In this document: piece after piece, positions 22,960-26,301 of the stretch
How positions within the stretch are numbered: position 1 is the first letter of the stretch
Layout: each line of letters opens with the position of its first letter
Program-made: the position numbers and the translations under genes
From: Lachnospiraceae bacterium
GTDB lineage: Bacteria; Bacillota; Clostridia; Lachnospirales; Lachnospiraceae
NCBI GenBank assembly: GCA_021201665.1
Contig: JAJQEO010000052.1
Location: 1-64,000, forward strand
Direction of reading: 5' to 3'
Length of the DNA stretch: 64,000 nucleotides
The notes under the pieces: model-generated
What the model saw: the letters and a program-made list of their open reading frames with translations, nothing else
Told to the model about the DNA's origin: nothing
Databases searched by the model: none

Positions 22960-23331
22960 TTATGCCTGTATTCTCTTTCCACTGCCGCGTCTGCCATTCA
23001 TCTGATACCTGTCATGCTTGCGGATGCTCCTTATCGCCTGCCGCAGGGTATTACTCCGTCCATGCTGATGATAGGGATGGGACGCCTTGTGTTTATGAAA
23101 TATCACGCAGCTTCCCGGCAGCGGATACTCCGGAGCGTCAGCCAAACGCGAAGCGTTTTTGAAATGGCTGACGCGACCTGCCGCCGAACGGATGTGAGGG
23201 GGCGTTTCCACATTATGGATATACCACACATGCCCCGTATTCTTTGACATTACCGTAACGTCATAATCATCCACATGGATGATGGCGAAATAATCCGGAT
23301 CCAGGCATTGTAAATCTTCCTTATGAAACAT
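22960..23331 (-). CDS. Hypothetical protein with an in-frame palindromic-element insertion
   Basis: The native protein appears to be about 95 residues: MFHKEDLQCLDPDYFAIIHV, DYDVTVMSKNTGHVWYIHN and, after the insert, CVIFHKHKASHPYHQHGRSN. It resembles small His-rich proteins next to ParB in mobile elements (possibly DUF6329); function unknown. Between the N of WYIHN and EYPL lie 26 extra codons (VETPPHIRSAAGRVSH and on) from the 80-base element at 23132-23211, with the frame kept. The start overlaps the end of parB. Confidence 0.55.
   Translation of the reverse strand: MFHKEDLQCLDPDYFAIIHVDDYDVTVMSKNTGHVWYIHNVETPPHIRSAAGRVSHFKNASRLADAPEYPLPGSCVIFHKHKASHPYHQHGRSNTLRQAIRSIRKHDRYQMNGRRGSGKRIQA
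23132..23211 (+). repeat. 80-base palindromic element copy C1
   Basis: Outer stem GCGTCAGCCA (23135-23144) / TGGCTGACGC (23165-23174), inner stem AACGC/GCGTT with loop GAA, then GACC and a tail with GAACGGATGTGAG, ending GGCGTTTCCAC. Near-identical to C2 at 24584-24664, same strand. It lies in-frame inside the small gene 22960-23331. Confidence 0.85.
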
Positions 23332-24295
23332 TCTCTGCCCTCTCTCTGAAATACTGCTCCAGAGCCTTTTCCAGAATGTCCGGCACATCTGCCGCTGCTG
23401 TATCTGAAAAATATCTCCGGAAAGTCTCTGCCGATATTTTTACACTGACCATTGATTTCTGCTTTTTCGGCTCCTGCCGGAACGCCTCCTCTGCATTTTC
23501 TTTTGTGATTTTACCCGCCATTTTTCTGAATCCTGCTGCCTGTTTTGCCTGGATCTTCCTTCCTTCTGTCTCAGATGCATGATGGATCAGTTTCTGTTCC
23601 TCATCCGATAAATAAGACAGATCCACAGCCGCCACCAGCGGCAGCGCTCCGGTATCCACGGCGGTCTTAAATTCCGGGATCAGCTTATCCAGCCGCATAT
23701 AGCGAGCGATATTTCTTCCCGTCATTCCATATTCATCCCCAAGCCCGTCGCGGCTTCTCTGAGACTTGTGGACATCATGTCCACAAGTCCCGCTCATGTC
23801 TTCCAGTGCAGCGATTTCACACAGAATATCATTCCGTTTTCCCTGACTGCTGATCTTCTCGTAACGCTCCGTCAGAACAGCCGCCTTTTCCGATGGAAGC
23901 AGATCCGCAAAGGATCTCTGCACCAGATTCGTCTCAATCACATAGACATAAGCATCTTCCTCTGACAGTCCATCCTTCACGATCGCCGGAATCTCTTTCA
24001 ATCCTGCCAGCCTGGCTGCATTTGCCCGATTATGTCCCGCCAGCATTTCATATCCGTTTTTCTCCACCCGCACAATCACCGGATTCAGGATCCCATGCTC
24101 CCGGATGCTTTCCACCATGTCATCCAGGCGTTCTCCTTCATAAAGGCGGAATGGATGGTCATGAAACGGCTTAAGCTTTTCAATCGGAAGCATCATAATT
24201 TTATTCTGCGCCACGGCCTCTTCCACAGCCATGTCCTCAGTCAGCAGATCCAACGCATCCTGAAACACCTTCCTTTTCGGTGCATTCGCTTTCAT
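23321..24295 (-). CDS. parB: Second ParB/RepB family partition protein
   Basis: 324 residues. The N-terminal domain has KLKPFHDHPFRLYEGERLDD near residue 42 and the ParB box MLAGHNRANAARLAGLKEIP near residue 84, then a helix-turn-helix around EYGMTGRNIARYMRLDKLIP. The insert between them contains a short His/Ser-rich stretch. The start at 24295 (MKANAPKRKVFQDAL) is favoured because everything upstream in the frame is the 3' end of parA. It overlaps both neighbours. It is only distantly similar to the first ParB, so this is a separate replicon remnant. Confidence 0.85.
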   Translation of the reverse strand: MKANAPKRKVFQDALDLLTEDMAVEEAVAQNKIMMLPIEKLKPFHDHPFRLYEGERLDDMVESIREHGILNPVIVRVEKNGYEMLAGHNRANAARLAGLKEIPAIVKDGLSEEDAYVYVIETNLVQRSFADLLPSEKAAVLTERYEKISSQGKRNDILCEIAALEDMSGTCGHDVHKSQRSRDGLGDEYGMTGRNIARYMRLDKLIPEFKTAVDTGALPLVAAVDLSYLSDEEQKLIHHASETEGRKIQAKQAAGFRKMAGKITKENAEEAFRQEPKKQKSMVSVKISAETFRRYFSDTAAADVPDILEKALEQYFRERAENVS

Positions 24296-25149
24296 TTCCG
24301 ACCACCTCCCTCGCCAGATTTCGATATGCTGTACACGCTTTGCTTCCCGGAGCATATTCCAGAAGCGGCTCACTGTAATAAATGGATTCCCCCACTTTAA
24401 CTGTATTCGGGATCGCGCTCCGGAAAATGCGGATCTGTCCCTCAAAAGTTTCTGTCACCTGCTCCGTGATCACTTTGCAGAGGTTTGTTCTGGCGTCACA
24501 CATGGTAAGCAGAATCCCCGCAATTTCCAGCCTGTCATTCAGGCGACTCCGAACTTTCTTTACCGTCCGGATGAAATCCTGCAGGAGCGTCAGCCAAACG
24601 CGAAGCGTTTTTCAAAATGGCTGACGCGACCTGCCACCGAACGGATGTGAGGGGGCGTTTCCACCCCATCATCGCCAGAAGCTGCGGGTTCACTGCAATC
24701 AGGACTTCATCAGCCGCTGTCAGCGCATTGATGGTCAGTGTACCAAGCGAAGGGCAGGTATCCAGAATTATATAATCGTATCGCTCTCTCAGGGGCTCCA
24801 GAATGCCTGAAAGCATCCTTTCCGCGCCCATTTCCGTCCGCAGTCTGCCTTCTACAGCAGAGAGCACCATGGATGACGGAATAAAGTCCACACCATTCCG
24901 GCTCCGGATGTAATCCTCCGCATCCGGCAGTTCCTCATCCTCCAGCCGGTCCATCATCAGATGACCGATTGTAACCGGAACTGCCGCCGTATCCTCAATC
25001 CCAAAACAGGTTGAAAGGTTTGCCTGGCTGTCAAAATCCACAGCCAGAACCTTCTTTCCCATCTCCGCCAGAAAATATGCCAGATTCCAGGAGCTGGCCG
25101 TCTTGCCAACTCCCCCTTTGAATGAACCACACATCAGAATCTTTGCCAT
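24237..25149 (-). pseudogene. parA: Second ParA partition ATPase, frame broken by a palindromic element
   Basis: The 5' part is a clean ParA: P-loop FKGGVGKTASSWNLAYFLAE, VDFDSQANLSTCFG and ILDTCPSLGTLTINALTAAD. After QLLAMMG, an 81-base element (24584-24664) enters and the frame becomes different; the natural sequence continues in another frame as LQDFIRTVKKVRSRL, MCDARTNLCKVITEQ and IPNTVKVGESI to the stop at 24237. Removing the element restores one ORF. The start ATG at 25149 overlaps the stop of the SymE-like gene. A partition system without ParA should be dead. Confidence 0.85.
24584..24664 (+). repeat. 81-base palindromic element copy C2
   Basis: Same structure as C1: outer stem 24587-24596 / 24618-24627, inner AACGC-GAA-GCGTT, GACC, then the conserved tail. 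It differs from C1 by one extra base in the loop region (TTTTTCAAAA against TTTTTGAAA) and one substitution in the tail. The one-base difference is what shifts the reading frame of parA. Confidence 0.85.
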
Positions 25150-25409
25150 CACTTATTCCCCCTTCCGTATCTGACTTCCTTCTCAGCCACACAGCAGGCT
25201 GGCACCTGCGCCTCCGCCATCTCTGCATCTACCCGCGTGATCGTCAGCTTTCCATCCTCACACTGCACCTGGATCTGCGCCCCGATTTCAAATCCCATCA
25301 TCTCCAGCCACTGTCCTTTGAGCGTAATTGTCGGCGTCGCCTTATACTTATATCCGCTCTGCTCATAAACCTTCATGTTTCTCGTCGTCTTCACATTTCT
25401 CGTTGTCAT
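25149..25409 (-). CDS. SymE-like protein, 86 aa
   Basis: The central part KYKATPTITLKGQWLEMMGF followed by EIGAQIQVQCEDGKLTITRV matches the AbrB-fold core of SymE-type proteins (type I toxin family related to antitoxin folds). AAAGGAGTCAAATCT precedes the ATG at 25409. Its stop overlaps the start of the second parA (TGATG). In SymE systems an antisense RNA controls translation; here a structured leader lies upstream but no antisense promoter was identified. It may instead act as a regulator of the par genes. Confidence 0.65.
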   Translation of the reverse strand: MTTRNVKTTRNMKVYEQSGYKYKATPTITLKGQWLEMMGFEIGAQIQVQCEDGKLTITRVDAEMAEAQVPACCVAEKEVRYGRGNK

Positions 25410-26133: not shown

Positions 26134-26220
26134 ACAATAAATTAGTGGTGACCACTAATTGGGCTGGTCGTAAGACCCTGGTCCACCGAGCGGCGGGGAA
26201 TTTCCCCGCCATTTTTATTC
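26134..26220 (+). ncRNA. Structured RNA upstream of DUF3800 gene (DUF3800-motif-like), with terminator
   Basis: The transcript from the promoter would fold as a hairpin AATTAGTG/CACTAATT with a five-base loop (26140-26160), then GGTC-GTAA-GACC (26166-26177, a GNRA-like tetraloop), and end in GGCGGGG/CCCCGCC (26192-26210) followed by ATTTTTATT, a clear intrinsic terminator. Length is about 80-85 bases. Several conserved RNA motifs named DUF3800 have been described next to DUF3800 genes; this one fits by position and structure, though I cannot say which class. It could be a small RNA or a leader attenuator. Confidence 0.65.
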
Positions 26221-26301
26221 TTTACTGGCTGATAAGACACCTTGCTGTCTGTATAATACAAAATATCAGCTGCGATTTCAATGCCAAAAAGGGGATTTGT
26301 T

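Follow-up and report, generated by a model that had tools for sequence, protein, structure and literature searches.

The window analysed here, a 64,000-nucleotide stretch of a Lachnospiraceae genome, contains two neighbouring genes that each carry a copy, C1 and C2, of the same short palindromic insert. We conclude that the two copies very probably represent a short, non-autonomous mobile element, that this element is the DNA behind the GA-cis RNA family (Rfam RF02987), and that genes absorb it when its length is a multiple of three. Four observations carry this conclusion: the repetition of the unit, an exact empty site without duplication at that site, a bias of the unit length towards multiples of three in long open reading frames (ORFs), and the covariation of the stems. 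Moreover, C2 shows that the element has recently been active. The copies and their host genes are the following (G numbers are our handles for genomes, G000 being that of the window):

23134..23211, plus strand (antisense to the host gene): C1, inserted GA-cis unit AG...TTTCCAC of 78 nt; RF02987, 59.3 bits; empty site in G206, same copy in G200 and G221
22960..23388, minus strand: small ORF (142 amino acids) carrying C1 in frame; no Pfam or NCBIfam match in a profile scan of the translation
24586..24664, plus strand (antisense to parA): C2, inserted GA-cis unit of 79 nt; RF02987, 54.9 bits; exact empty site in G221
24535..25152, minus strand: 5' piece of parA, extending through C2, an ORF of 205 amino acids; AAA_31 (E 3.7e-45, residues 4-171) and NCBIfam ParA/MinD models
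24237..24503, minus strand: 3' piece of parA in a different reading frame, an ORF of 88 amino acids; TIGR01969 (positions 192-243 of 251, E 6.6e-5)

Two copies of one insert in neighbouring genes

As the comparison confirmed, a single insert is present twice, as C1 and as C2. Both lie on the plus strand, both exceed the gathering cut-off of RF02987 (34.7 bits) over the whole model, and they are 96% identical (BLASTN with the C2 segment as query; 78 of 81 columns agree); the E value of 2.8e-31 excludes chance as the source of this likeness. The first-pass annotation had described such a near-identical pair, with elements of 80 and 81 bases that differ by one loop base and one tail base. The pair was recovered where it had been placed, and the two lengths hold for the stretch common to both copies (23132-23211 and 24584-24664). 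This stretch is slightly longer than the inserted unit, for which the empty sites give 78 and 79 nt. The tail difference stands (GCCGCCG in C1, GCCACCG in C2), whereas the loops (TTTTTGAAATGG in C1, TTTTTCAAAATGG in C2) differ by a substitution plus an extra base. Outside the common stretch, the sequences next to C1 do not resemble those next to C2, as the annotation had stated, and this difference together with the existing empty sites rules out gene duplication and supports its view that the copies arose by insertion.

C2 is a recent insertion that broke the parA partition gene. In G221, another species of the genus, the window region could be aligned in two segments, one of 1500 bases with 96.0% identity and one of 836 bases with 94.6%; C1 is present there and C2 is absent. 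The alignment breaks exactly at CTGCAGG^CCCATC, and therefore 79 nt (24586-24664) were gained with no base duplicated or lost. This is the only such exact site, and at this site there is no target duplication; the comparison with empty-site homologues that had been proposed thus defined both the boundaries of C2 and the lack of a target duplication. C2 is missing from all 16 homologous parA loci that were recovered with both flanks, each of them being a net 79 nt shorter than the window. In the family, 11 of 348 genomes were matched (our own included), and 11 loci in nine of the other ten have both flanks with a net difference of 79 nt each, the tenth genome (G392) being matched on one side only. 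The search in the genus (47 genomes, our own included) gave at least five such loci with the same net difference in four genomes (G221 twice, G219, G240 and G227); among the matches listed, G213 and G228 were matched on one side only. Intact copies of parA are present in the relatives. A length of 79 nt is not divisible by three, which puts the two pieces of parA in the window into different frames; they match separate parts of TIGR01969 (MinD, 251 positions), the 5' piece covering positions 3-145 and the 3' piece positions 192-243; the frameshift that had been predicted for parA is thus real. The observation that the first-pass annotation had named as refuting, namely the same residues in ParA proteins of other genera, did not turn up. 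It is extremely improbable that C2 is an artefact of assembly or strain mixing: the genome is indeed a draft of 121 contigs (97.7% complete, 6.15% contamination) in which one locus (C26/C118) appears twice, but C2 lies in the interior of a 92.9-kb contig, differs from C1 by changes of its own, and is joined precisely to its flanks.

C1 is older than C2. C1 is found at the same place in G221 and G200, and the frame has been preserved in all three species, that of the window among them: it is open through C1 in G221, and the ORF at 22960-23388 is open over its whole length, in agreement with the claim that C1 leaves the frame of its gene unchanged. An empty C1 site, CCGG^ATTGTG with a net difference of 78 nt, was read by eye in G206, a more distant sibling (about 77% identical). 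In G200, a second repeat of 51 nt is nested inside C1, and the ORF is still open. This nested repeat is one copy of a second palindromic repeat, in which a variable stem encloses CCAGTGG and CGTTTAGCA(A/C)CGACCGAAGCG comes next; copies of this repeat were observed in L127 (at about 1472 and 1834) and in L025 (at about 1579).

Copies in the genus and the genes that carry them

The search for further chromosomal copies that the first-pass annotation had suggested was productive: G000 contains 62 RF02987 matches at E <= 0.01, many of them inside protein genes. Neither the identity with GA-cis nor the housekeeping genes among the hosts, the exact unit of 78/79 nt or the lack of target duplication had been anticipated in that annotation. 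We laid out 55 of these, leaving aside seven weak ones (E 1.3e-4 to 0.009). In the genus, whose members are gut-type bacteria, matches were found in 24 of 47 genomes, with at least 14-62 copies in 16 of them and at least 1-8 in eight, and none in the other 23; in a sample of the family, at least 15 of 200 genomes were positive. These counts are lower bounds, the searches of the genus and the family having used stricter filters with at most 72 candidates scored per genome. None of the 14 control genomes gave a match to RF02987. The exact tail pattern occurred in nine stretches of a species-level collection, i.e. in eight metagenome-assembled genomes (MAGs) of Lachnospiraceae and one of Clostridiales. 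In seven other genera, where 52 of 73 matches were laid out, a spanning ORF was absent in 39 cases, short in ten and longer in three, the three longest ORFs extending over 12+499, 16+467 and 138+76 codons around the element. Outside the genus of the window, the element is therefore mainly an intergenic repeat, and its coding habit is so far a property of this one genus.

Within the genus, sibling sequences allow the insertions to be measured at other loci. At six cleanly aligned sites the net insertions are 78 nt (C10), 75 nt (C34), 78 nt (C44), 78 nt (C74), 78 nt (recD2) and 195 nt (ileS), the last corresponding to an array plus linker and being seen against five of six relatives, with 123 nt against the sixth; a repeat-on-repeat pair at C103 was ignored in this comparison. 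At C57, the same insertion is present in the sibling G209. Among 40 ORF translations, 13 have Pfam matches on both sides of the element or across it: ileS, a GH2 gene, an HGD-D dehydratase with three tandem copies, an HI0933 flavoprotein, a P-type ATPase, a MATE/HATPase fusion, two ABC ATPases, a C39-peptidase ABC exporter, an ABC-class ATPase, and three AAA-ATPase/PDDEXK genes (in L030, one of the three, the PDDEXK match is below its cut-off). In recD2 and ribF the element is located near the N terminus, and in the probable dnaX it lies beyond the last matched domain. Genes for AAA-ATPase and/or PDDEXK proteins are frequent hosts (L008, L014, L018, L028, L030, L061 and L072), and L014 and L018 have the same stem at matching sites.

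In our genome, 33 copies are in spanning ORFs of 250 amino acids or more, and for 28 of these the unit length is a multiple of three, as compared to 5 of the 14 other copies (Fisher p 0.0015; p 0.010 and 0.0036 with thresholds of 200 and 300 amino acids, respectively). These 47 copies remain from the 55 after removal of four that could not be parsed and four that were duplicate, nested or at a contig end, and at least three of the parsed lengths are visibly misread (C7:42299 and both C87 copies). The sibling stretches gave 42 hits, of which 26 were parsed; 23 of these copies are in ORFs of that size, and 21 of the 23 have such a length. All six frames and both orientations are used, with 12 sense and 18 antisense copies among the 30 assigned by hand, and the element can be read in all six frames because it is G+C-rich and poor in stop codons. 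A special coding design of the element was considered and rejected given its small excess of open frames over dinucleotide shuffles; for the most part, its compatibility with coding is apparently due to base composition. ORFs broken or ended by a copy were seen for C2, a Na/H exchanger (C11:17572), an integrase (C35), and C43:101256. We infer that the frame bias results from purifying selection after insertion, and the host proteins would then be made with an extra peptide of 25-27 residues. One might object that the segment is removed at the RNA level or skipped by the ribosomes, so that the genes are functional whatever its length, and both the strong hairpins and the presence of housekeeping genes among the hosts would suit such a scenario. 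Removal, however, would make the length modulo three irrelevant; the copies in long ORFs mostly have lengths divisible by three, the frames used are open, and purifying selection on the frame also argues against removal from the RNA. We therefore regard this explanation as very improbable.

Stem covariation and the nature of GA-cis

The unit can be written as AG-hairpin-hairpin-TTTCC-NN and is mostly 75-78 nt long (73-82 nt in nearly all parsed copies); tandem units are joined as TTTCC-NN-AG. Alternative bounds, NNAG...TTTCC, were rejected because the conserved codons at C1, C10, C74 and C96 fit AG...TTTCCNN better (as judged by eye) and because the G221 site agrees with the latter. The first hairpin begins one base from the 5' end of the unit; it is imperfect and includes an inner hairpin with a GAA loop, whereas the second hairpin contains tandem G.A mismatches that are kept in one strand sense. 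The inner and second hairpins covary, with 6 of 13 predicted pairs changed on both sides among 36 copies. The outer stem was missed by the automatic alignment because its arms are too variable, and it was therefore paired arm by arm: the arms form 8.65 of 9 standard pairs, even though there are 40 distinct left arms in 51 copies (51 of 55 copies were parsed, each at the best of several offsets, with at least two, C103:16305 and C7:42299, misplaced). When arms were exchanged between copies (best offset, 200 trials), the mean dropped to 6.34 pairs with a maximum of 6.62. Every position of the outer stem except the first varies among several Watson-Crick types. Thus, the outer stem varies among the copies yet remains paired. 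The window copies that were folded gave z-scores of -3.2 and -2.8 on the plus strand and of -2.4 and -4.7 on the other strand; since both strands fold, the folding energy singles out neither of them.

Covariation of both hairpins is what one would expect of a cis-regulatory RNA, with the repeats forming a regulon, and the retention of the tandem G.A mismatches in one strand sense as well as the mainly intergenic position in the seven other genera (the 39 of 52 copies mentioned above) point in the same direction. On the other hand, most parsed copies in the genus of the window are inside long ORFs, in both orientations and in all frames, the host genes have no evident function in common, and one gene (C17) has tandem copies whose stems differ. 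The regulatory reading is implied by the name of the family, the original description of which was reportedly given by Weinberg et al. in 2017. All in all, we consider a regulatory function of the repeats quite unlikely. No description of GA-cis as mobile or intragenic was found in the literature searched; the original description lies outside this literature, so that the absence of such a description is unproven. In the Rfam 15 paper, GA-cis appears as a line in a table. Stems that vary freely and are nevertheless paired may reflect a need of the mobile form to fold, or template switching by which one arm becomes a copy of its partner. It is tempting to extend this idea to the family as a whole: tentatively, and with somewhat more doubt than confidence, we suggest that GA-cis is a mobile hairpin element rather than a class of regulatory RNA, that its covariation, usually taken as proof of a structured RNA, stems from a folding requirement or from hairpin-templated rewriting of the arms of a mobile DNA, so that most stems differ from one another and are still self-complementary, and that it now supplies genes throughout the genomes of one lachnospiraceal genus with insertions of 25-27 residues in any frame.

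Mobilisation, neighbourhood and related elements

The two-hairpin unit inserts precisely and in either orientation, without target duplication at the single site that could be read exactly, and T-C-rich sequence is weakly preferred immediately upstream of it (C in 27 and T in 21 of 44 copies at the two best positions). The element does not avoid genes in this genus; we propose that insertions with a length that is a multiple of three add 25-27 residues and persist, whereas those that break the frame mark recent events, as in the case of C2 in parA, or decaying genes. A putative enzyme would move the element in trans. Several points weigh against a mobile element that is absorbed by genes in this way. 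A near-identical empty site is available for one insertion event only (C2), the others having been deduced from more distant relatives, and two of the eight aligned sites are not clean multiples of three (86 nt at C43:101256; at C37, 75 nt by the BLAST ends and 77 nt by hand). The length bias is sensitive to the choice of ORF threshold (with 150 amino acids, p is 0.17), the Fisher test counts tandem copies separately although they are not independent, and the sibling sample lacks a contrast, with only three copies outside long ORFs (p 0.32). The excess of open frames is small (4.02 of 6 versus 3.62 in the shuffles). Finally, no transposase was found as mobiliser: Y1_Tnp and IS110 were searched for, and neither tracks the element, Y1_Tnp having no match in G000 and a presence that does not follow the copy number.

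A hairpin at the terminus and the lack of duplication would suit a single-strand (HUH) transposase. Repetitive extragenic palindromic (REP) elements have a hairpin close to their 5' end, as here, and they are extragenic. A REP-type element moved by a Y1 transposase, i.e. a REP-associated tyrosine transposase (RAYT) or IS200-like enzyme acting on single-stranded hairpin DNA, would account for the position of the first hairpin, for the insertion without target duplication, and for the short upstream T-C preference, which resembles the 3' end of the element itself. However, there is no Y1_Tnp match in G000, G129, G142, G168 and G180, all of which carry copies, whereas genomes without copies have up to eight (G206); this leaves a past or lost source, and makes the explanation an unlikely one. 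As for an origin from IS110 (bridge-RNA) elements, IS110 transposases gave three matches in G000, the weakest below the cut-off, and also three in G152, which is free of copies; G200 and G209, which both have copies, gave one weak match each below the cut-off. Neither family tracks the element; resident Y1 transposases were rejected as mobilisers on this ground, and those of IS110 are not supported in this role. A larger autonomous parent was also considered and rejected: near-identical copies in G239, G242 and G240 (L162-L175) turned out to be embedded in a larger repeat with shared stretches of about 235 nt (the ORFs and the genic position of this repeat were not checked). For 6 of the 13 copies in G239 and G242, the distance to a contig end is about 115 bases or less. 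In our own genome, split GA-cis copies were observed (L013, L019 and L023), the tail apparently being interrupted by other small GC-rich palindromes.

The surroundings of C1 and C2 contain further features of interest:

23321..24445, minus strand: ParB-like gene between C1 and C2, without insert; ParB_N, E 1e-19
26160-26207, plus strand: DUF3800-XI RNA; RF02975, 69.1 bits
22542-22730, minus strand: excisionase-type helix-turn-helix protein; a second match, to the defence-system model MAD1, reaches 67.9 bits and is thus under the cut-off of 80

The ORF at 26281, just downstream of the DUF3800-XI RNA, is presumably DUF3800-like (no NCBIfam match), and it is followed by recombinase ORFs on the other strand. 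Ten window ORFs were scanned, with RepA_N, a second ParB, phage tail, DUF2800 and resolvase proteins among them; this gene content gives the window the appearance of one or more mobile elements.

Short palindromic repeats that lie in frame within conserved protein genes have been reported as Rickettsia palindromic elements (PMC2229807, PMC10969869), and in-frame palindromic inserts have also been reported in Wolbachia (in a study cited by PMC2229807). The insert studied here likewise occurs in frame in conserved genes such as ileS, GH2, HGD-D, recD2 and others. However, the Rickettsia unit has 105-146 bp, as compared to 73-82 nt in Lachnospiraceae, and its peptide is conserved and read in one frame, whereas all six frames are used here and the stem is hypervariable. 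The element thus resembles the Rickettsia palindromic elements in its effect but is not one of them. Miniature inverted-repeat transposable elements (MITEs) such as Correia/NEMIS, ERIC and RUP are non-autonomous, shorter than 200 bp, form stem-loops and are in some cases fused in frame to genes (PMC2229807). These features are shared by the element; in contrast to MITEs, it left no target duplication at the only site that could be read exactly, and it lacks a terminal inverted repeat, the ends AGCGTC... and ...TTTCCAC not being inverted repeats (no systematic search for insertion sequences was made). As compared to its entry in Rfam, where GA-cis is filed as an RNA family, it is here a high-copy insert within coding genes in both orientations.

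Rickettsia is the best-known case of palindromic inserts that lie in frame in many conserved genes, and here a different element, used in both orientations and in all six frames, has the same outcome in a genus of the Lachnospiraceae. What is new is that a family filed in Rfam as a "cis RNA" shows the behaviour of a mobile palindromic element absorbed by genes. This is also a warning that RNA discovery based on covariation can pick up mobile hairpin DNA. Since related genomes with and without given insertions are at hand, the absorption of selfish DNA into proteins becomes testable in these bacteria.
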